NCBI GenBank assembly: GCA_002706365.1
Contig: PALM01000029.1
Location: 1 to 33,373, forward strand
Length of the DNA: 33,373 bases
Source: Flavobacteriales bacterium
Lineage (GTDB): Bacteria > Bacteroidota > Bacteroidia > Flavobacteriales_E > Vicingaceae
Direction of reading: 5' to 3'
Shown: in pieces, positions 11,996 to 28,640 of the stretch
Layout of the letters: each line of letters opens with the position of its first letter
Position numbering within the stretch: the first letter of the stretch is position 1
Notes under the pieces: model-generated
The model's database searches: none
Seen by the model: the letters and a program-made list of their open reading frames with translations, nothing else
What the model was told of the DNA's origin: nothing
Translations under genes and position numbers: made by a program

Positions 11996-12044
11996 TTATG
12001 GAAATGATTAAAAATTTTCACTAGGTTTGGGACAGTATTAATTT
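11996..12044 (+). promoter_or_regulatory. Promoter block of the first barrel gene, shared with the second
   Basis: The block contains TTATGG at 11996-12001, then ACTAGGTTTGG (12020-12030) with TAGGTTTG (12022-12029) as a -7 element, then CAGT-ATTAATT. The same series, with the same spacing to within one or two bases, precedes the paralogous gene at 19993. The predicted leader is about 35-40 bases. The remainder of the 11760-12069 gap shows no gene or terminator that I can support. Confidence 0.6.
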
Positions 12045-12069
12045 TCAATAGCTAACCAAATACTTTAAA

Positions 12070-12933
12070 ATGAAACGGATAAGTACTTATTTAGGACTAT
12101 TGTTGCTTGCCTCCTTAATTACATTTGATGCAGAGGCGCAATTGTCTGAAAGAATCAACAACCCTAGCTCTTTAAGAATTGGCACTAGACCAGTTGAAGG
12201 AAATTTTGGTTTCTTCATTGCGGTTGAATTGGACCAGTTCGAAGACCTTTTTGATGAAAAAACAACGGTTGAAGAAGCAATTCCACTTATTAATGTGAGA
12301 TATTATATGAGGGATGATCTAGCACTTAGAGTAGGCCTCTCAAGTTGGAAGAAGTCTAGAACCCTAGAAGGGGAAATTGATAACGTTACTGACCCAAATG
12401 ATCCAAATCCAGGACCACAAGGTGTTGGTGATTACACTAATATCAAAGAGGTTGATGCATATACCCTTTTACATCTGGGAATAGAGAAGCACTTCAAAGC
12501 GTCAAATCTTCTCGATGGTTATATAGGGCTTAGTCTACCACTTGGGTATACCAGAGGTTCCGCTTTTATTAGTCAGGGTGTAGATGGAGCGAATCCAGAT
12601 TATGAGAATATCGAGGTTAGTAGATTTAGCTTTGTTTATGGAGCTGAATTATTCGTAGGAACAAATGCATTTATTGCAGACCTTCCATTGGCAGTAGGTG
12701 TTGAACTTGGTCTTAAAGGGCTGGGTATTCGCGGAGATAAGTTTAAAACCGAATATGAAGGTAGATCTGGTGGTGTAGATTATTCAGGTGAATATTTTAC
12801 CAACAATATTGATGATTTTGATGATCCTTTCTTCCAAGCTGAAGCAGACCGTCTAGAGTTTTCTTCTTTGAAGGCTAGAAGTTTTGATACTCAAGCATTG
12901 ATCAGATTTTCAATCAGTTACTTTTTCAAATAA
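12070..12933 (+). CDS. Outer-membrane beta-barrel protein
   Basis: A 287-residue exported protein with signal peptide 'MKRISTYLGLLLLASLITFD' and cleavage predicted after Ala23 (AEA-Q). The mature part alternates polar and hydrophobic residues in short strands separated by acidic loops, and ends 'LIRFSISYFFK', close to the usual aromatic barrel-assembly signal. The segment 'INVRYYMRDDLALRVGLS' matches 'LRLRYFSSSDMAFRVGLS' in the protein at 19993, so the two are paralogues of the small OmpW/OprF-like barrel type. Seven bases separate it from the lipoprotein gene at 12941, so the pair is one transcription unit. A specific cargo or role cannot be assigned. Confidence 0.75.
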   Translation: MKRISTYLGLLLLASLITFDAEAQLSERINNPSSLRIGTRPVEGNFGFFIAVELDQFEDLFDEKTTVEEAIPLINVRYYMRDDLALRVGLSSWKKSRTLEGEIDNVTDPNDPNPGPQGVGDYTNIKEVDAYTLLHLGIEKHFKASNLLDGYIGLSLPLGYTRGSAFISQGVDGANPDYENIEVSRFSFVYGAELFVGTNAFIADLPLAVGVELGLKGLGIRGDKFKTEYEGRSGGVDYSGEYFTNNIDDFDDPFFQAEADRLEFSSLKARSFDTQALIRFSISYFFK

Positions 12934-12940
12934 ATAAGAC

Positions 12941-13390
12941 ATGACAAATAAGAAATATATATTTCTGTCACTTGCGACTCTCTTTTTATTGTTATCGTCA
13001 TGTAGATTAAATACCACTTCTAATCTGAGGTCGGGGACTACTATGCCAGATGTGGTATGGCTCAAAATGACCCTCGATGATTACGAATTCCTCGGTGACG
13101 TAGAGATTGAAGTTGAATTCCATCGTTATTTCGGTGTCTTCAAATATGTGAATACAATCAATGGAGAACCTGTTTCGATAAGCAATAGGAACTATGTAAG
13201 ATTGCAAGGCAGAACACCAATTCGATTAAATCCACCTGTACTTGATAGAGCGCTTTACAAGGCCTATCAAGAATATCCAGAAGCTGATTTTCTTATGCCA
13301 GTTATGACAACTACAGAAGTGCAGCAATTATTCCTCGGACGAAAGGTGACGGCAAAAGCCAAAATTAAAATGTATAAGATCAAGAAATAA
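12941..13390 (+). CDS. Small lipoprotein of unknown function
   Basis: A 149-residue protein with an N-terminal signal of lipoprotein type: 'LFLLLSSC' puts the acylated Cys at position 21. The mature part is a compact mixed fold without cysteines. Its last third holds 'LYKAYQEYPEADFLMPV' and 'FLGRKVTAKAKIKMYKIKK', a pattern that looks like a dimeric beta-alpha-beta unit used in several Bacteroidota envelope lipoproteins, but I cannot name the family. It follows the barrel gene by 7 bases and is closed by a strong intrinsic terminator at 13418, so barrel plus lipoprotein is a two-gene operon. Location is probably the periplasmic or outer face of the outer membrane. Confidence 0.72.
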   Translation: MTNKKYIFLSLATLFLLLSSCRLNTTSNLRSGTTMPDVVWLKMTLDDYEFLGDVEIEVEFHRYFGVFKYVNTINGEPVSISNRNYVRLQGRTPIRLNPPVLDRALYKAYQEYPEADFLMPVMTTTEVQQLFLGRKVTAKAKIKMYKIKK

Positions 13391-13417
13391 TAATTCGCTT
13401 ATACTATTCATTGTTAG

Positions 13418-13447
13418 AAAGTGCCTTCTTGAAGGCACTTTTTTTTT
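13418..13447 (+). terminator. Intrinsic terminator after the barrel-lipoprotein pair
   Basis: AAAGTGCCTTC and GAAGGCACTTT form a perfect 11-bp arm pair around TT (in practice a four-base loop), followed by a run of T to 13447. The T-run merges directly into the -7 box of the next gene. Confidence 0.88.
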
Positions 13448-13454
13448 AAATTTG
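13447..13454 (+). promoter_or_regulatory. -7 promoter element of the caspase operon
   Basis: TAAATTTG, ending 22 bases before the ATG at 13477 and overlapping the T-tail of the terminator. The nearest upstream TTG (13429-13431) lies inside the terminator loop at a short 15-base spacing, so the -33 part is weak. Confidence 0.45.
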
Positions 13455-13476
13455 ATAGCGATCATAGCTAAATCAC

Positions 13477-14283
13477 ATGAATTTCTTTAAGTATCTAATT
13501 TGCCTTAGTGCAATTGTTGTATTGTTCTCTTGTAATGATTCTGATGACGATGAAGGTTTCGGAATTGAAATATCTCCAGAAGCCAATAGATTGAACAGAG
13601 AAGGGGGTAGTGTAGTCAACTTTGTGGTATCAATCCAGTCAACTGAAGATCTAAGAAGATATAGGGTGAGTGAGAATATCGACAATGGTGGGTTTAATTT
13701 GCTAAAAGAAGCAGATATAAGCGGTAAGTTCTACTCTGACTTTTTTGATTATACCGTACCCGACACTTTTGACTTTGGTCTGCACGAGATCGTGATCAAA
13801 TTCTCTACACTTGACGTAAGAGGGAATTTGATGGAGCGTGCAAAAGTGATCAATGTGAATGTTACGGAAAGAACGTTGACTGAATACGGGGGAAATACCA
13901 TGTACTCCAATCTTAGTAGTCAGCCTGATGCCTTTGATCTGCTAAATGGCAGTTCTAAATACAGCTCAGATACACTTGCACATATCAGGGACTTCACCCT
14001 TGCTAATCCAAATGATAGCTTAGGTAAGGCTTGGACATCTCCAATGCCTGGTATAAGTTTTGTTAGAATTGGAAGTGGAGGCTTTGATTACGGAAATGCT
14101 ACAGATCAAAATGTAATGACCTCTTATGAAGCTGGTGTTAAGAACGACACTATTCGTAATTTAAAGGCTGAAGATGTCATCCTTACAAAGATCAATGACA
14201 CTTATGTAGCTGTGAAGTTGGTACTTGTAATTGATGAGGCAGGAACAACGAATGACCGCTACTTTTTTAGCATAAAGCGATAA
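13477..14283 (+). CDS. Lipoprotein of unknown function, first gene of the caspase operon
   Basis: A 268-residue protein with a lipoprotein signal: 'AIVVLFSC' places the acylated Cys at 19, followed by the acidic stretch 'NDSDDDEG', common at the start of surface-retained Bacteroidota lipoproteins. Residues about 30-135 look like an Ig-like or cadherin-like beta domain ('GSVVNFVVSIQSTEDLRRYRV', 'DFGLHEIVIKFSTLD', ending 'AKVINVNVTE'). The remainder (about 140-268) carries a second beta-rich domain with 'PDAFDLLNGSSKY' and 'YFFSIKR' at the end. It has no enzyme motif. The next gene (propeller-caspase) starts 11 bases downstream, so the two are co-transcribed and may act together at the envelope. 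A family cannot be named. Confidence 0.72.
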   Translation: MNFFKYLICLSAIVVLFSCNDSDDDEGFGIEISPEANRLNREGGSVVNFVVSIQSTEDLRRYRVSENIDNGGFNLLKEADISGKFYSDFFDYTVPDTFDFGLHEIVIKFSTLDVRGNLMERAKVINVNVTERTLTEYGGNTMYSNLSSQPDAFDLLNGSSKYSSDTLAHIRDFTLANPNDSLGKAWTSPMPGISFVRIGSGGFDYGNATDQNVMTSYEAGVKNDTIRNLKAEDVILTKINDTYVAVKLVLVIDEAGTTNDRYFFSIKR

Positions 14284-14294
14284 AAACCAAGGCT

Positions 14295-16361
14295 ATGAGA
14301 AGACTAAGTCTACTACTACCATTATTCTTTTCTCTCTGTTTTTTTGAATTGAATGCTCAAAAGCTGCTAAATGTTTCCTTTAGCAAAGAGTTTAATGAGC
14401 AGAACGATAATCATATCAATGCCGCGATCAAGACAACTGATGGCTATTATTTGGTTACAGGTTACACTTTGAATAATAGTGCCGGTGGTAGAGACATCTG
14501 GGTTGCTAAAATGACTGTCTCAGGTGAGATCATCTGGCAAGAGGCATTAGGAGATATTAATAATGATGAAGGAACAGCATTGGTTGAAAACGATAAAGGG
14601 GAGTATGCCATTGTTGGACATTCAATTAGTCCTACTGCAGGATATACAGAAGGCTGGTTCTTGAAATTCAGCGATAAAGGCAAACTGAAGAAGAAAACGA
14701 TATTCAACCTATCGCCATACATCAAGCTATATGATATAGAATTGATCGGAGGTTCCGACTTTGCTGTTGCAGGTGTATGGAAGGTGTCTGGTGATAATGA
14801 TGAGAACCTTCTTATCATGAAGTTGAATTCAAATGGCGTAAAACTGTGGAATCAGCAATTGGGTACAAAATACTTCCCCGATGAAGGTCTTTGTCTTCAT
14901 GTGACCGATCAAGATGAGATCATTGCTGGAGGCTTTACTACACTGAATTCACAAAAAAGAAGGCTCTTTTTAATAAAAACTGATTCTTACGGGAAGGTTT
15001 TATTTAAAGAAGAGATCGGTGATGAAGGAATGAATGCCATCCAATCGATTGCTGAAACTCCCGATGGGAAGATCATTCTGGCAGGTTACTCTTCAGTGAA
15101 TTCGAATGGAGAAGAAGATGCGATGGTCATGATCTTCGATAGCTATAAGAAGATCATCTCTCAAAAGACTTTTGGAAGAGGTTCTTCAGACAAGTTGAAT
15201 GCGATCAAACCATACAAAGGAGGCTATCTAGTTATCGGAACCAGCAATTCGCTCAAAGATGATGGTTCTAGAATGTATATCGCCAAGCTAGATAAGGATC
15301 TTGAAGTTTTGTGGGAGCGTGTTTATGAAACCGAGAAGAACTCTTTTGGCTCTGATTTGATCATCAATCTAGATGGTTTCACAGCCTTCGGTTCTGTTGA
15401 ACAGGATAAGACTGTGAACTCGGTGATCATTACTTATGAGGATAATACCAACACCATTCTTGCGGGAATCTCCGATGAAAAGGCCAAAGAAGATACACTG
15501 AAAAAATATGCTGTTCTGGATGGAATGACCCTTTTGGAAAATGTAGTGAATGAAGAGTTCGCCGATGTTACCTTCAGGGGAAGTGGGGATCCATTGAAAG
15601 GACTTAATGTCTCTCGTACTTTGGATGACCTTAAAGTGGGAGATTATTATGCGCTTATCATCGGGATCGATAAGTACAGTGGTTCGTGGAAGGCTTTGAA
15701 CAATGCAGTTAATGATGCAAAGGCGGTAGAAAGTCTACTGAAATCCAAGTATCGATTCACTCAGTTCAAAACCTTGTACAATGAACAAGCAAGCCGTACA
15801 AATATTATTGCCGCATTGGAATGGTTAGTGGAGAATGTACGACCAGAAGACAATGTCTTTATCTATTATTCCGGACATGGTGAATTCAAGAAAGAGCTGA
15901 ATAAAGGCTACTGGGTGCCTTATGGTGCTACTACAATGTCTACCAGCAATTACATTTCGAATAGCGACATCCAGACATTCATCAAAGGGATACAGTCAAA
16001 TCACACTTTGCTGGTTGCAGATGCCTGCTTTAGTGGAGATATCTTTAGAGGTAATACCATGTCGGTACCTTTCGAAAACTCTCCAAAATACTACAAAAAG
16101 GTACATAGCTTGAAATCTCGCCAGGCAATGACATCAGGTGGCTTGGAGCCTGTAATGGATGGCGGACAAGACGGTCATTCCGTGTTTGCTTATTACCTTT
16201 TGAAAGCACTTAGAGAGAATGAATCCAAAATGATGGATGCCAGTCAGATCTTCGATAAACTCAAGATCCCGGTATACAATAACTCAGATCAGTCGCCCGA
16301 CTTCAAACCAATTGGTAAATCGGGTGATGAAGGTGGACAGTTTATCTTCATGAAGAAGTAA
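14295..16361 (+). CDS. Exported propeller-caspase fusion (peptidase C14 / metacaspase-like)
   Basis: A 688-residue protein with signal peptide 'MRRLSLLLPLFFSLCFFELN' cut after Ala21. Residues about 42-382 form seven related units of roughly 50 residues, each with a 'DGYYLVTGYT...DIWVAKM...GEIIWQEALG' pattern, so a seven-bladed beta-propeller is likely. Residues about 450-688 are a caspase-like p20 domain: 'YYALIIGIDKYSGSWKALNN' (451-470), catalytic His528 in 'YYSGHGE' and catalytic Cys578 in 'VADACFSGD', both intact. C14 peptidases cleave after basic or acidic residues and often need a trigger; the substrate is not known. The signal peptide puts the enzyme in the periplasm or on the surface. 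It sits 11 bases after a lipoprotein gene and 12 bases before the phosphatase receptor gene, in one operon. Confidence 0.87.
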   Translation: MRRLSLLLPLFFSLCFFELNAQKLLNVSFSKEFNEQNDNHINAAIKTTDGYYLVTGYTLNNSAGGRDIWVAKMTVSGEIIWQEALGDINNDEGTALVENDKGEYAIVGHSISPTAGYTEGWFLKFSDKGKLKKKTIFNLSPYIKLYDIELIGGSDFAVAGVWKVSGDNDENLLIMKLNSNGVKLWNQQLGTKYFPDEGLCLHVTDQDEIIAGGFTTLNSQKRRLFLIKTDSYGKVLFKEEIGDEGMNAIQSIAETPDGKIILAGYSSVNSNGEEDAMVMIFDSYKKIISQKTFGRGSSDKLNAIKPYKGGYLVIGTSNSLKDDGSRMYIAKLDKDLEVLWERVYETEKNSFGSDLIINLDGFTAFGSVEQDKTVNSVIITYEDNTNTILAGISDEKAKEDTLKKYAVLDGMTLLENVVNEEFADVTFRGSGDPLKGLNVSRTLDDLKVGDYYALIIGIDKYSGSWKALNNAVNDAKAVESLLKSKYRFTQFKTLYNEQASRTNIIAALEWLVENVRPEDNVFIYYSGHGEFKKELNKGYWVPYGATTMSTSNYISNSDIQTFIKGIQSNHTLLVADACFSGDIFRGNTMSVPFENSPKYYKKVHSLKSRQAMTSGGLEPVMDGGQDGHSVFAYYLLKALRENESKMMDASQIFDKLKIPVYNNSDQSPDFKPIGKSGDEGGQFIFMKK

Positions 16362-16373
16362 TCCGTTCCTAGA

Positions 16374-19300
16374 ATGAGATTTCGACTTCTATTTCTCGCA
16401 TCACTATTACTCTATTCCCTAGGATCCTATAGCCAGAAGAATAATTTTACTGCATACACAGTAAGGAATGGTTTACCGCAGAACACGGTCTACGAGATCT
16501 TTCAAGACTCAAAAGGCTATCTATGGCTTTGCACGGATGGTGGTGGAGTATCCAGGTTCGATGGAAGAACACATACCTACTTTAAGAAAAGTGATGGTCT
16601 GGCTAGTAATGTGGTCCGCAATGTACTGGAGGATAGCAAAGGGAATTTTTGGTTTGCCACCAATGAAGGGGTGAGTTTCTACGACGGACGCAATTTTACC
16701 ACCATCTCTGAAGATGAAGGCTTGATCAGCAATACCGTGGTTGAGATATTCGAAGATTCTAAAGGAAGGATCTGGGTGGGTTCTACGGGAGGTCTGAGTT
16801 ACATTTCAATTGAGGAGAACGTATCAGTTCAAAATTTCACAGTTTCAGAAGGGCTTTCAAGCAATAATGTATTTGCCATCCTAGAAGATGACTTCAATAG
16901 ACTTTGGTTGGGATATATTGGTGGGGCTCCCCAAATGATTGACCTATCAGATGGAAAATTAAATGTGAGCTCAGTAGCGATCACTCAGAATTATGACCTC
17001 AAGACCATCTACTGTGGAGCCAAAGATGAAGCTGGAAATATTTGGTTTGGCTCCATTCAGAATGGAGTGTTCAAGTTTGAGATCAATAGTGTGGAAGAAC
17101 AGCCTGAAGTCACTAACTACAGTATTCTAACAGGGCTGAAAGACAATTATATTCTAGATATAAAACCGGTCGACTCAGTGATTTGGATCGCCACTAATGA
17201 TGGTGGAGTGAATTATATCATCAATGATCAAGTAAAGACCTTCACAACTGAAGACGGACTCCCCGGAAATCAAATTCTCGACCTCTTCATTGATCAGGAA
17301 AGCAATTTGTGGATTAGCTGTATGGGTGAGGGTATCCTTAAACTGAATGGTTTTGAATTCTCTCATTTTGCAGAACAGGATGGTTTGATCAGCGATCAGA
17401 TCAGTTATATCCGAAAGGATAGTAAATCTTCCAGCCTTTGGCTTGCCACCTTTGATAAAGGTCTTCAGCGTTTTAGGATAGAGGATAATAAAATTCGTAC
17501 TGAAGCTACAGTGCTTAGCGACAATGAGCTTTATAATTCAATTCGCAGCTTCGATTTTGATGCTAACGACAATATCTGGATAGGAACCCAAAATGGTATT
17601 GTGGTTTGGAATGAAGAGATTCTGGCCAAAGTGGGCTCAGAGTGGATAGCAGGAGATCGGATCAACTCAGTTCTATGTGCAAGTTCTGGATGGGTTTGGA
17701 TAGGCACCAGCAGTGGGCTCTCATTCTACAATGGGGAATATGGAGTCTTCAGAGAGGAGGATGGCTTCATCAACAATGAGATCCAAACCATAATAGAGGC
17801 ATCTGATAAAACTATTTGGATCGGTACACTAGGAGGTTTAGCTTCATATAAAGATGAGATCATGGTAACCTACGATGAGGTGGAAGGACTTAATAACCTG
17901 AAAGTGCACTCTTTGATTGAGGCCTCCAATGGAAACATCATCATTGGAACCTATGGTGGGGGACTATTTTCATTGGATAAAGCGAGGGATAGTTTGCAGA
18001 TACTACCTATGCTCAAGAGCGAAGAACTGACCTCTTCTAATGTCTACTCCTTAGCATTTGAAAACGATAGCACCCTGATTGTAGGAACAGATAAGGGGGT
18101 AGATAAAGTGATCATCAATTCAGACTTGTCTGTGAAGTCTGTGCAACACTATAATGAGAACAATGGCTTTCTGGCAATTGAGAATAATATCAATGCCATT
18201 TATTACGACCAAAGTCGTGAGTCGGTGCTTTTTGGTACGGTAAACGGACTTACCTCCTACAGATCAAAACTTGAGAACAAAGAGAGAAACCGTCCATTGA
18301 TCAATTTGGAAGAGATCAAACTTTTCAATCAAGATGTTGACTGGACAGAGTTTGGCGATATTAACGGTAATTACCTTCCTGTAGACTTGGTCTTACCTCA
18401 TGATCAGAATTTTATCTCCTTTATTTTTAGTGGTATTTATTTCAAGAATCCCGAGAACATTAGCTACCGTTATCGCCTACTTGGCCTGAATGATATATGG
18501 TACAAATCCGAAAGTCGGGAGATCGTATTTCAGGGATTAGAGCCTAATGAATATACTATAGAAGTAAAATCAGTTACTGAGAATGATTATGAAAGTGAAG
18601 TCTACTCATTCTCATTCACGGTCAATCCACCTTACTACAAGACTTGGTGGTTTTATACACTTTGTGTGATCTTCATTGCCCTGAGTATAACCATTTACAT
18701 TCGATTAAATCTGAGAAGACTGAGAAGAGAGAAGATCGTACTGGAGAATACCGTAACTGAAAGAACCAAGGAGATCGTCGCTCAAAAAGATATCATCGAA
18801 GAAAAGAATCAAGAGATCCTGGATAGTATCAATTATGCTCAAGGCATTCAACAGGCTATCTTGCCTGATAAGCATAAATTGAATGCCTATTTTGATGACT
18901 ACCTGGTCCTATTCAATCCAAAGGATATTGTAAGTGGCGACTTCTATTGGGCGCATAAGAAGAATGATAAATATTATTTCATGGCTGCGGATTGTACCGG
19001 TCATGGTGTTCCCGGATCCATAATGAGCGTTGTGGGTCACACAAGCTTAGAAACTACACTCAAACACCCTGAAGAATTGAAGGCAGGCGAGTTCTTGGAT
19101 ATGCTCAATCAAAACGTATTGGATATTTTGCTTCAATCAGAAGAGCATAGTGTAAAGGATGGTATGGATGTTGGCCTTTGCATCTACGACCCTAAAACTT
19201 CAAGCCTAGAATTTGCCGGTGCAAACAATCCAATGTATATCGTTAGGAAAAAAGAGTTGGGTTTTACTGAGACTGTTCCGGAAGAAAACTTATCCATATC

Positions 19301-19646
19301 AAACGATAGTTTCAATCTTTTTGAATTCAAAGCCAATAAACAACCAATTGGAGATTACGACCATAGAGTTCCTTTTGATACCCACACCATTAAATTAGAG
19401 CCGAATGATACGGTCTATGTCTTTAGTGATGGATTCCCGGATCAATTTGGGGGGCCATTTGGCAAGAAGTACAAATACCGTCCTTTCAAAAGGTTCTTGC
19501 TAAAGATCCAGAAAGAGAACTTAGGCAATCAGAAGGTGCTCTTGAGCAATGAGTTAGCAGACTGGATGCATCCTGTAGACAGTGAAGAGAATCACGAACA
19601 AATTGATGATATTTTGATATTTGGAGTGCGGTTTAGGAAGCCTTAA
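16374..19646 (+). CDS. Membrane receptor with periplasmic regulator propeller and cytoplasmic SpoIIE/PP2C phosphatase
   Basis: A 1090-residue protein with signal peptide cut near Ser20/Gln21. Residues about 28-635 hold some 13-14 Reg_prop repeats ('IFQDSKGYLWLCTDGGGVSRFDG', 'IWVGSTGGL'), enough for two seven-bladed propellers. A Y_Y_Y domain follows (about 675-750, 'YRYRLLGLNDIWY'), then one membrane helix (757-777), a coiled coil (780-835) and a SpoIIE-type PP2C domain (842-1088). Its metal-binding acids are Asp856 ('SGDFYWA'), Asp873 ('AADCTGHG'), Asp1019 ('FSDGFPDQ') and Asp1078/1079 ('QIDDI'). There is no HisKA or HATPase domain, so it is not a hybrid histidine kinase. Family knowledge points to dephosphorylation of a STAS-type anti-anti-sigma factor, none of which is encoded here. 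It ends the caspase operon. Confidence 0.92.
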   Translation: MRFRLLFLASLLLYSLGSYSQKNNFTAYTVRNGLPQNTVYEIFQDSKGYLWLCTDGGGVSRFDGRTHTYFKKSDGLASNVVRNVLEDSKGNFWFATNEGVSFYDGRNFTTISEDEGLISNTVVEIFEDSKGRIWVGSTGGLSYISIEENVSVQNFTVSEGLSSNNVFAILEDDFNRLWLGYIGGAPQMIDLSDGKLNVSSVAITQNYDLKTIYCGAKDEAGNIWFGSIQNGVFKFEINSVEEQPEVTNYSILTGLKDNYILDIKPVDSVIWIATNDGGVNYIINDQVKTFTTEDGLPGNQILDLFIDQESNLWISCMGEGILKLNGFEFSHFAEQDGLISDQISYIRKDSKSSSLWLATFDKGLQRFRIEDNKIRTEATVLSDNELYNSIRSFDFDANDNIWIGTQNGIVVWNEEILAKVGSEWIAGDRINSVLCASSGWVWIGTSSGLSFYNGEYGVFREEDGFINNEIQTIIEASDKTIWIGTLGGLASYKDEIMVTYDEVEGLNNLKVHSLIEASNGNIIIGTYGGGLFSLDKARDSLQILPMLKSEELTSSNVYSLAFENDSTLIVGTDKGVDKVIINSDLSVKSVQHYNENNGFLAIENNINAIYYDQSRESVLFGTVNGLTSYRSKLENKERNRPLINLEEIKLFNQDVDWTEFGDINGNYLPVDLVLPHDQNFISFIFSGIYFKNPENISYRYRLLGLNDIWYKSESREIVFQGLEPNEYTIEVKSVTENDYESEVYSFSFTVNPPYYKTWWFYTLCVIFIALSITIYIRLNLRRLRREKIVLENTVTERTKEIVAQKDIIEEKNQEILDSINYAQGIQQAILPDKHKLNAYFDDYLVLFNPKDIVSGDFYWAHKKNDKYYFMAADCTGHGVPGSIMSVVGHTSLETTLKHPEELKAGEFLDMLNQNVLDILLQSEEHSVKDGMDVGLCIYDPKTSSLEFAGANNPMYIVRKKELGFTETVPEENLSISNDSFNLFEFKANKQPIGDYDHRVPFDTHTIKLEPNDTVYVFSDGFPDQFGGPFGKKYKYRPFKRFLLKIQKENLGNQKVLLSNELADWMHPVDSEENHEQIDDILIFGVRFRKP

Positions 19647-19992
19647 ATACTCTGATAATCAATTTATTAATTGTGTATTTCAGCATCTTTAGTGCAAAGT
19701 GACCCAATTTGATGATTTTGCCAGTTATATTTTTTGGACTATCAAGAATCACTTTTCAACAAAAAGCATGTTTAAAAATATTCAAATGCCTTCTATGAAT
19801 GCTATTATTGACTCGTTGAATATTAAAAAATGCCTGATAAACAAAGGGATTGAAGGCTATTAGGGGAGTATGTAGATAATTGATTAATTATATGCTTACC
19901 TGTCTGAGTATAAGGCTATTTTATGGTAAGGATTGATTTTTTTACTAGGTTTGGTTCAGTTTAATTAAAACGAAAACCTAAAAATCATTAAA
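19647..19992. other. AT-rich intergenic gap before the second barrel gene
   Basis: No terminator with a strong stem is visible after the phosphatase gene; only a weak CAATT/AATTG hairpin occurs near 19660. A 31-codon frame (19768-19863) is not convincing. The last 70 bases hold the promoter block described separately. Confidence 0.55.
19921..19966 (+). promoter_or_regulatory. Promoter block of the second barrel gene, near copy of 11996-12044
   Basis: TTATGG, an AT-rich spacer, ACTAGGTTTGG with -7 element TAGGTTTG (19946-19953), then CAGT-TTAATT. Order, spacing and the 35-40-base leader match the block before 12070. Both genes also end their leaders with TTAAAATG-AAA at the start codon. Confidence 0.6.
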
Positions 19993-25169: not shown

Positions 25170-28100
25170 TTGCTTATCAGGCAGCTCTTAAGTTTTATTC
25201 TACTGTTCGTGCTTTGCTCGCAGATTCAGGCCCAACGCTGGAACAATCTTCGTCAACAGGAACTCCAATTGAACTCAGATAGTATCAAGCTAGATAGTCT
25301 GAGCCTAGTTCCCTCATCCCAAATTTTGAGAGATGGTGAAGGCAAGCTAATTCCCGATTCACTCTATCAGATCGATCATGCGAAGGGTTTATTGATTCCA
25401 GATAAATCCCTAAAGGGAACTCAAGTGCAGATCAGTTATCGAGTGCTGCCGATCGACCTCAGTAAAGAATATTATCACAAAAGCCTGGAAGATATTGAGC
25501 AATCCGATCCGGGTAAATTCGATTACTTCACCATAAAGGAGGATAATAGGGAGAATGAACTTTTCTCCATCAGTGGATTGAATAAAAATGGTAGTATCTC
25601 CAGAGGCGTGAGTTTTGGTAATAACCAAGATCTGGCAGTCAACTCCAATTTGGATCTGCAACTTTCTGGTAGAATTACCGATGAGATCAGCATTCAAGCT
25701 GCTATTAGTGATAATAACCTCCCAATTCAAGCCGAAGGGAATACTCAGCAGCTTCAAGAATTCGACAGGGTGTACATCAAGCTCTTTACCGATAGATCGG
25801 AATTGATCGCGGGTGATTACCTCATCAGCCGTCCTGAAAGTTATTTCATGAACCTCAATAAAAAGGTTCAAGGTGGGGGTTTCTCCACATCCATCATCAC
25901 CAAAGAAACTGCTGAGGACCCTGAGTACGGACAACTATTCACATCTATCAATGCAGCTATTTCAAGAGGTAAGTTCAGCAGGAACGTTATTCCTGGAGTG
26001 GAAGGAAATCAAGGGCCTTATCAACTGCAAGGTGCTGAAGGCGAGTCGTTTGTGATTGTACTTTCAGGTACTGAGAGGGTTTATATCAATGGCAAATTGA
26101 TGAAACGTGGACAGGAGAACGACTATGTGATCGACTACAATACAGCGGAACTCACCTTCACCCCAAATGTGCTGATCACCAAAGACCTTCGAATAGTAGT
26201 CGAATTCCAATACTCAGAGCTAAATTATAGTCGCTCTGTGATCTATTCGGAAAATCAATACAAAGAGGGGAAGTGGCAGATCGACCTGAATCTTTATTCT
26301 GAACAAGACCACAGGAATCAACCGCTTCAGCAAGATCTCAATGAAGAGGATCGTCGGTTGCTTTCTGAAGTTGGGGATGATCTAAATCGGGCCTTTATAA
26401 GCGGAATTGATACAACGGGCTTCATTGATGATCAGGTAAATTATAAGTTGATCGATACCTTGGGTTTTCAAGATGTTTTGATCTACTCCAAGGATCCGGA
26501 TCTTGCCATTTATTCGGCCAGGTTTAGCCAAGTTGGACAGGGAAATGGTAACTATATACAAGTGGCATCTGATGGAAATGGACGAGTGTTCGAATTCGTA
26601 CCTCCGGTGGGCGGAGTTCCCCAGGGTAATTATGAACCCCTAGTGAGATTGATCACACCTAAACGCCGACAAATGTTCACTTTGGGCAATAGCTACCAAT
26701 TTAGCAAGAACACTAAGATCTCTGTTGAAGGTGCTATAAGTCGATTCGATCAAAACACCTTTTCAGATAGGGATTCCGATGATGATGATTCTTATGGTTT
26801 AAGGTTGAATTTCGACCATTCCCAAGCCATAACGGCTCCCGATAGCGGTGTGGAGAGTCGATGGAATAGCAAGCTCTTCTACGAGCAGAGGGGAACTCAT
26901 TTTGAATACATTGAGCGTTACAGAGATGTGGAATTCGATAGAGACTGGAATATTCGAGGCTTGAGTTTAAGTGGCCATGAGTACCTGGTTAGAGCCAGCA
27001 ACGGAGTCTCAAAAGGAAAGAATTTCCTGAACTACGATTTCGACTCCTACATCAAAGGCACAGATTATCAGGGTATTCGAAATGGTTATAGAGGGAATTA
27101 TTCAAAAGGTGGCTTCTCAATTGTCTCTAGAGGATCATACCTAACAGCTGAAGCTGAGGATAATAGTGAGTTCTTAAGACATTATACTACTGTTAGGCAA
27201 AAAGTGCTGGGCTTAACTGTAGGCGGCTATCTAGAGCAAGAGCAGATCCTATTTTATGAAGGTCAGACAGATAGCCTTCAGGCAAGTAGTTTCAATCGTG
27301 TGATCTGGAGAAGTTTCATTGAAAGGGGAGATACCAACTCCGCAAACTTCTATCGCTTATCGTATGGCGAGATCTACGATTACTTCCCCAGGAATGAGCA
27401 ATTGGATTACTCATTGAAGTCGGAGAACTTCGACTTTGATTTCAATCTTGCCAGCAACCCAAACAGTCGCTTGAACGGTAAAGTGAGTTACAGAAAACTA
27501 CTGGTGAAGAATGAAGAGCTAGCTAATCGAGACCCCGAGAATAGCTTAGTTGGTAGATTAGAATACGATCTAAAGGCCTTCAAAGGCTTTATAAGTTCCA
27601 ATACCTTCTATCAAATTGGAAGTGGATTGGAGAATAGAAGGGAGTTTTCATTTTTGCAAGTGAATGATGGACAAGGAACTCATGTCTGGATCGACTTCAA
27701 CGAAAATGGGGTTAGCGAGTTGAATGAATTCGAAATTGCAGGGCCTAACAATCAATTCCAGGCGAATTATATTAAGGTATTTACCCCAACCAATCAGTTT
27801 ATTCGGGTGTTCGACAATCAATTTGCACAAGTGCTGTTCCTCAGGCCCAATGCGCTTTTACAGGGCAAGAAAGGTTTGGCAAAGTTTATTGGACGCTTTT
27901 CAGATAAGGCAGCATATCGCGTTGAGCGAAAAACCGAAGAAGAGGAAAATATTTACAATCCATTCGATACAGAAGTCTCAGATACCAATCTGATCTCTAT
28001 CAATTCATCTTTCTCAAATACCTTTTATTTCAACCGCTTGAACCCCGTATTTGGTATGGAGTTCTTCTTCTTAGATACAAGAGGGAAGAGTTTACTTACC

Positions 28101-28640
28101 AACGGTTTTGAAAGCCGCTCTCAACAACAAAGAGAGCTTAGAGCTAGATACAATATCAGCAGGATCTACTCAATAGAAGCAAGAGCGAGTACCTCAGAAA
28201 GAGCAACAGCCTCTGAATTCTTCAGCAATAGAAACTACATTATCCTAAGTGATGAATTAGAACCCACTTTGATCTATCAGCCTTCTGTGAAATTCAGATG
28301 GAGCTTATCCGGAATCTACGGTGAACGAAGCAATGAATTGGGAGATGAAAGGGTCTTCAACAGGACCTTATCCACCGAAATGAGATTCAATGATGCCGGA
28401 AAAGGAACATTTTCAATGGAGTTGAGCTATATAGAGCTCGACTTCAATAGCTCTGAGAACAGTCCTTTATCATTTGAAATGCTAGACGGCTTGAGTCCGG
28501 GAACCAATATCACATGGACGGTTCTCTGGCAGAGGAATCTCAGCAATAACCTTCAGCTGAATCTGAATTACAGTGGAAGAAAGTCAGAGGATCTTCGAAC
28601 TATTCACACTGGTGGAATGCAGTTGAGAGCCTTCTTTTAA
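25170..28640 (+). CDS. Large putative outer-membrane beta-barrel protein, unknown function
   Basis: A 1156-residue exported protein. The start is a TTG: an in-frame stop lies 19 bases upstream and no ATG precedes the signal peptide 'MLIRQLLSFILLFVLCSQIQ' (cut after Ala21). An N-terminal beta region (about 40-110) is followed by a conserved-looking block 'SISGLNKNGSISRGVSFGNN' and 'LQLSGRITDEISIQAAISDN' (about 130-185). After that, long amphipathic strands continue to the end, and the chain closes with 'GGMQLRAFF', an aromatic barrel signal. The segment 'WIDFNENGVSELNEFEIA' (about 830-850) resembles a calcium-binding loop. The style recalls SprA-type barrels, but it is far shorter and lacks enough shared sequence to assign. 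A TAAATTTG at 25071 could be its promoter. The 3' end abuts a convergent gene with a 3-base gap. Confidence 0.75.
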   Translation: MLIRQLLSFILLFVLCSQIQAQRWNNLRQQELQLNSDSIKLDSLSLVPSSQILRDGEGKLIPDSLYQIDHAKGLLIPDKSLKGTQVQISYRVLPIDLSKEYYHKSLEDIEQSDPGKFDYFTIKEDNRENELFSISGLNKNGSISRGVSFGNNQDLAVNSNLDLQLSGRITDEISIQAAISDNNLPIQAEGNTQQLQEFDRVYIKLFTDRSELIAGDYLISRPESYFMNLNKKVQGGGFSTSIITKETAEDPEYGQLFTSINAAISRGKFSRNVIPGVEGNQGPYQLQGAEGESFVIVLSGTERVYINGKLMKRGQENDYVIDYNTAELTFTPNVLITKDLRIVVEFQYSELNYSRSVIYSENQYKEGKWQIDLNLYSEQDHRNQPLQQDLNEEDRRLLSEVGDDLNRAFISGIDTTGFIDDQVNYKLIDTLGFQDVLIYSKDPDLAIYSARFSQVGQGNGNYIQVASDGNGRVFEFVPPVGGVPQGNYEPLVRLITPKRRQMFTLGNSYQFSKNTKISVEGAISRFDQNTFSDRDSDDDDSYGLRLNFDHSQAITAPDSGVESRWNSKLFYEQRGTHFEYIERYRDVEFDRDWNIRGLSLSGHEYLVRASNGVSKGKNFLNYDFDSYIKGTDYQGIRNGYRGNYSKGGFSIVSRGSYLTAEAEDNSEFLRHYTTVRQKVLGLTVGGYLEQEQILFYEGQTDSLQASSFNRVIWRSFIERGDTNSANFYRLSYGEIYDYFPRNEQLDYSLKSENFDFDFNLASNPNSRLNGKVSYRKLLVKNEELANRDPENSLVGRLEYDLKAFKGFISSNTFYQIGSGLENRREFSFLQVNDGQGTHVWIDFNENGVSELNEFEIAGPNNQFQANYIKVFTPTNQFIRVFDNQFAQVLFLRPNALLQGKKGLAKFIGRFSDKAAYRVERKTEEEENIYNPFDTEVSDTNLISINSSFSNTFYFNRLNPVFGMEFFFLDTRGKSLLTNGFESRSQQQRELRARYNISRIYSIEARASTSERATASEFFSNRNYIILSDELEPTLIYQPSVKFRWSLSGIYGERSNELGDERVFNRTLSTEMRFNDAGKGTFSMELSYIELDFNSSENSPLSFEMLDGLSPGTNITWTVLWQRNLSNNLQLNLNYSGRKSEDLRTIHTGGMQLRAFF

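Follow-up and report, generated by a model that had tools for sequence, protein, structure and literature searches.

Bacterial caspases have mostly been discussed as cytoplasmic effectors of cell death or defence, and few of them have a known pathway. Among the closest described systems, the characterised metacaspases and other non-metazoan members of family C14 have acidic pockets and cut after Arg or Lys (PMC5756287), and in Pseudomonas aeruginosa the phosphatase SiaA dephosphorylates SiaC at T68, a reaction opposed by the kinase SiaB (PMC7647112). In the stretch of DNA analysed here (the window; 33,373 nucleotides (nt), contig PALM01000029.1 of assembly GCA_002706365.1, from a Flavobacteriales bacterium of the Vicingaceae), the genes for an exported caspase and a receptor phosphatase with a SiaA-like output domain stand side by side, downstream of a lipoprotein gene. 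The pairing of such caspases and receptors in many Bacteroidota suggests an undescribed inward route for an envelope signal via a caspase-type protease. We put at roughly one in two the probability that the pair is a conserved two-gene envelope signalling module, extended here by the lipoprotein, in which caspase and receptor act in one pathway.

The evidence that carries this reading is the recurrence of the pair in a survey set of 395 genomes of the class, for which the linkage counts are lower bounds (coordinates were joined across class-wide searches that listed part of the matches, with two receptors scored per genome). In at least 13 genomes and one further case cut by a contig end (L082), from 9 families, the gene for a caspase of the window's own lineage (lineage I) is followed directly, in the same orientation, by the gene for a homologous Reg_prop-SpoIIE receptor; besides the window, the linked loci are L067, L068 (in which a small open reading frame (ORF) on the opposite strand intervenes, as L052, covering the same locus, shows), L070, L071, L080, L097, L102, L105, L110, L111, L117 and L123. 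A second lineage (lineage II), in which the caspase carries TPR and immunoglobulin-like (Ig-like) parts, is likewise found directly upstream of such a receptor, on the same strand, in at least 21 genomes and one cut case, from 7 families. Pairs of both kinds occur in the window's own genome, the second (L150, 7143-12721, contig C23) consisting of a divergent TPR-Ig-caspase followed by another Reg_prop-SpoIIE receptor, and the lineage II pair is also present in most other genomes of the window's family and in genomes of families f6, f21, f41 and f44; in genome G009 its members are separated by about 90 kb, with both genes retained. None of roughly 30 control caspases examined outside the two lineages, mostly exported-looking, has such a receptor adjoining. 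In a tree of the receptors, the linked ones group together, those of lineage II in nearly one clade. Since the genes upstream of the pair vary and are mostly in divergent orientation, the conserved unit is the caspase-receptor pair, which often stands by itself. The preliminary description had placed protease and phosphatase receptor in a shared pathway and looked to gene neighbourhoods for confirmation; conserved adjacency in two caspase lineages now argues for that proposal, and adjacency of the pair is not rare. Its extension of the linkage to all three gene families fails for the lipoprotein, homologues of which were found, among the loci compared, only in G009 (47% identity) and, upstream of the caspase, in G075 (31%).

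The caspase (14295-16361, + strand, as are all features below; 688 amino acids (aa); defined from its ORF, Pfam, alignment and a structure model) begins with a signal peptide, read by eye, that occupies residues 1-21 and ends in LNA ahead of Q (MRRLSLLLPLFFSLCFFELNAQ; 14295-14357). It is followed by a delta-60/DUF5122-type beta-propeller (residues 38-347; 14406-15335), an RGSGDPLKGLN linker recognised in the alignment of lineage I (residues 428-438; 15576-15608) and a Peptidase_C14 domain (residues 452-668; Pfam 2.3e-21). The DUF5122 match (9.5e-06) falls short of Pfam's cut-off; profiles also identify the propeller, its strands are modelled by AlphaFold with a predicted local distance difference test score (pLDDT) of about 60-85, and the best Foldseek matches are beta-propellers. 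The catalytic residues His528 (15876-15878, motif YYSGHG) and Cys578 (16026-16028, motif DACFSGD) are exactly where they had been placed and are invariant across aligned relatives, giving the p20 domain and dyad of family C14. The best PDB sequence matches are metacaspases. Asp474 falls on the Asp in the CIND motif of metacaspases, Asp576 lies within the DxC motif, and both are invariant in aligned lineage I sequences; because these positions are conserved and the pockets of characterised non-metazoan C14 enzymes are acidic, a preference for Arg or Lys at P1 is predicted. The motif RGxGDPLKGLN ahead of the caspase core is likewise unchanged throughout the aligned sequences of lineage I, and its Arg428 is a possible self-cleavage site. 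The signal peptide agrees with the earlier placement of the caspase outside the inner membrane, and a periplasmic location is probable. The suggestion that this is unusual did not stand, exported caspases being common in Bacteroidota. Export was also dropped as a trait distinguishing these caspases: 67 of 74 lineage I copies are signal-peptide-like by a loose heuristic with a 52% background, and 29 of the 32 control caspases appear to be exported as well.

Lineage I, with 78 copies in 30 of the 395 genomes and in 15 families, forms a single clade on the tree and mostly scores above 400 bits, the next caspases scoring below 225. The caspase domains are about 60-70% identical even between distant Bacteroidota, while the N-terminal parts differ and include delta-60 propeller, WD40, WG repeats, ankyrin (with C-terminal HHH), CsgG, CARDB-like and Reg_prop types. 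At three loci (L073, L077 and L081) the lineage I caspase forms a fusion with a Reg_prop propeller like those of the receptor (by Pfam on L073 and by the receptor profile on all three). In family f24 (L193-L197), the gene after that of a related receptor encodes a Reg_prop propeller on its own, and the lineage I caspases of these genomes were located elsewhere. Among the caspases of the class more generally, one genome (G186) carries eight genes for exported caspases in tandem (L134, 22-18510). A viral or plasmid origin found no support in viral-contig and plasmid searches.

The receptor (16374-19646; 1090 aa; from ORF, Pfam, alignment and PDB match) has the architecture first ascribed to it in every part. 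Of its 14 W-x-G-T units of Reg_prop type (Pfam 1.3e-44), 13 were recognised by pattern and one, LWLCTDGGG, by eye; together they would fit two seven-bladed propellers. They are followed by a Y_Y_Y domain (18441-18623; Pfam 1e-08), a single transmembrane helix read by eye at about residues 758-779 (18645-18710) and a cytoplasmic, SiaA-like SpoIIE/PP2C phosphatase domain (18963-19634; Pfam 1.3e-14, profiles and PDB match). The acidic SpoIIE motifs SGDFYW, ADCTGHG, KDGMD, SDGFPDQFGG and IDDILI are found, and an alignment of 12 receptors shows no variation in the Asp columns D856, D873, D932, D1019, D1078 and D1079. Pfam finds no HisKA/HATPase or receiver domain, in agreement with the view of it as a receptor without a kinase and unlike a hybrid two-component protein. 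The propeller architecture said to be shared by protease and receptor is indeed common to both here and in many pairs of lineage I; the caspases of lineage II have TPR and Ig-like parts in its place.

Dephosphorylation of a STAS-like partner had been proposed as the output. The only PDB match of the SpoIIE domain is SiaA itself (6k4e, 1.6e-28), and the NCBIfam SiaA model NF038263 matches it at 7.2e-44 (150 bits, below the cut-off of 700, and in its C-terminal part only). The window's genome encodes three SiaC-like and two SiaB-like proteins, and one SiaC reads YFNTSSSK against the T68 peptide YLNTSSIK of P. aeruginosa (PMC7647112), the other two having Ser and Leu at the threonine position. 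Because the domain is closest to SiaA and SiaB/SiaC-like proteins are encoded, a SiaC-type partner is likelier than a classical STAS protein; the proposal thus survives in that SiaC-type proteins have a STAS-like fold, and loses ground for classical STAS partners. At L175, the genes for SiaB, SiaC and a SpoIIE protein are adjacent, a single case that supports the pairing within the phylum. Closeness of siaB/siaC to the pairs (L160, L175 and L199) was rejected as significant, three SiaC genes per genome and 20 kb windows giving a few such cases by chance. In the window's own genome, SiaB-SiaC has as a neighbour a 1023-aa ABC-ATPase/permease protein (L151, 5581-9702), a homologue of which (1028 aa) adjoins a caspase-receptor pair in L057 (12327-15413).

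The first gene of the trio encodes a 268-aa lipoprotein (13477-14283; lipobox VLFSCN) of no known family by Pfam and profile searches, the single-sequence model of which has a mean pLDDT of 31. The three ORFs lie exactly as first reported, on one strand and separated by gaps of 11 and 12 nt. Ahead of them, after the gene for a small lipoprotein (12941-13390; LLLSSC lipobox; homologues of 58% identity in G009 and 38% in G075), is a strong intrinsic terminator-like hairpin (13416-13443; 12 bp stem and T run), and G009 and G075 have in the equivalent position a hairpin with a T-rich tail that differs in sequence. Upstream again is an exported protein resembling an outer-membrane barrel (12070-12933), without a significant Pfam match; G009 (54%) and G075 (37%) each have a homologue at the corresponding position. 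This five-gene order (12070-19646) is repeated in G009, from the same family, and in G075, from another. The terminator before the lipoprotein gene, the tight spacing and the synteny in both genomes together support the single operon that had been proposed for the trio, in which the lipoprotein is a lineage-specific addition common to G009 and G075, outside the wider caspase-receptor core. A near-identical motif, ACTAGGTTTGG (a TAnnTTTG-type Bacteroidota promoter element), occurs at 12041-12070 and 19945-19975, ahead of the two barrel-like genes that flank the operon. Elsewhere in the window, 25170-28640 encodes an exported protein of 1156 aa with no Pfam match of any kind.

Within the module, the N-terminal propeller (or the TPR/Ig part in lineage II) would sense an envelope partner or damage, releasing or activating the caspase, possibly via a self-cut at the invariant Arg428. 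The active caspase might then cut a periplasmic target after Arg or Lys. The simplest targets would be the receptor's own sensor part or a ligand that both proteins share, for which the lipoprotein is a candidate. The receptor would in turn alter the activity of its PP2C domain, which would dephosphorylate a partner of SiaC type (STAS fold) against the action of a SiaB-type kinase. We offer tentatively the view that a caspase-family protease working outside the cytoplasm switches on signalling by a transmembrane phosphatase receptor dedicated to it, and that its nearly invariant caspase module carries N-terminal recognition parts that can be exchanged. Several observations weigh against the module. 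About 64 of the 78 lineage I copies and about half of the lineage II copies are without such a receptor adjoining among the matches listed (contig breaks, and matches beyond those listed, explain some of these cases), some receptors of the lineage I clade have no caspase neighbour (L190 and L191), and the lipoprotein is not widely conserved. The siaB and siaC genes lie on other contigs, outside the receptor's operon, and the search for STAS and RsbW genes advised in the preliminary description did return STAS proteins and one RsbW-like protein in the window's genome. The structural model of the caspase part is of low confidence, only the propeller being usable, and does not fix the linker relative to the active site. 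The direction of action, with the caspase before the receptor, is the least certain step.

Reversing that direction gives the alternative that survives best, albeit an unlikely one: the caspase would be an output or co-regulated effector whose production is set by the receptor pathway and which processes other envelope or surface proteins. Within the pair the caspase gene invariably comes first, and the many lineage I copies that stand alone with other N-terminal parts imply an enzyme able to act without this receptor; repeated pairing with one receptor type in two lineages, on the other hand, suggests more than co-expression. C25 gingipain/PorU-type enzymes trim lipoproteins or barrels in type IX secretion, and a comparable role in envelope maturation or quality control, with the caspase trimming such proteins and the receptor monitoring the result, would suit the upstream genes for a barrel and lipoproteins, which are syntenic in three genomes, and the PorP/SprF-like genes (family assigned by eye) near the pair in L050-L052. 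Such neighbours differ among families, however, and no sorting domain was recognised by eye at the C-terminus, making this role improbable. Cytoplasmic bacterial caspases have been proposed to kill the cell on infection, and an envelope counterpart acting as a suicide or antiphage effector would accord with variable, recognition-like N-termini and a match to the PADLOC 'caspase' model (8e-20); the model is a generic one, neither receptor nor lipoprotein has a PADLOC match, the neighbours are housekeeping genes rather than a defence system, and the searches found no lineage I relative in viral contigs and no close one on plasmids (all below 60% identity), so that this role is very improbable. 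Least probable is adjacency by descent without functional coupling. Kinship does inflate counts within families, but the pair reappears in 9 and 7 families with changed genes around it, and the chance of such a neighbour is below about 1% per gene (for a genome of 3 Mb with about 11 SpoIIE genes).

Through a conserved genetic partner, the exported caspases of two lineages, which occur in many Bacteroidota families, can be assigned to a pathway open to testing: a periplasmic protease coupled to a phosphatase receptor and, probably, to switches of the SiaB/SiaC type. The pair is also a defined entry to the phylum's many Reg_prop-SpoIIE receptors, and, if the signalling module is real, it represents a route from proteolysis to dephosphorylation that is as yet undescribed in bacteria.

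The literature searched (open-licence papers) yielded no description of caspase and SpoIIE together in Bacteroidota. The 2012 survey of caspases in prokaryotic operons (PMC3501461) includes WD40 and TPR caspases comparable with those described here and notes possible signal peptides; SpoIIE is not mentioned in its main text, and its operon section is without this pair. Compared with metacaspases and orthocaspases, the caspase has the same p20 fold motifs and His-Cys dyad, with acidic residues at the predicted S1 positions, and differs in its predicted export, its RGxGDPLKGLN linker, its exchangeable exported N-terminal domains and its receptor neighbour. Like SiaA of the SiaABCD biofilm pathway of P. 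aeruginosa, the receptor is a membrane protein whose PP2C domain is cytoplasmic and belongs to the same SpoIIE subtype, and SiaB/SiaC homologues are encoded in the genome; it departs from SiaA in its Reg_prop/Y_Y_Y sensor, its caspase neighbour, an operon without siaB or siaC and a genome in which our search found no GGDEF output. It shares Reg_prop/Y_Y_Y-like propellers with PorZ of type IX secretion (NF052228, 81 bits), but lies far below the equivalog cut-off of 260 and ends in a cytoplasmic phosphatase instead of being a surface protein. Its periplasmic sensor architecture is identical to that of the hybrid two-component sensors of Bacteroidota (Reg_prop-Y_Y_Y-HisKA), in place of whose kinase the receptor here carries a phosphatase.

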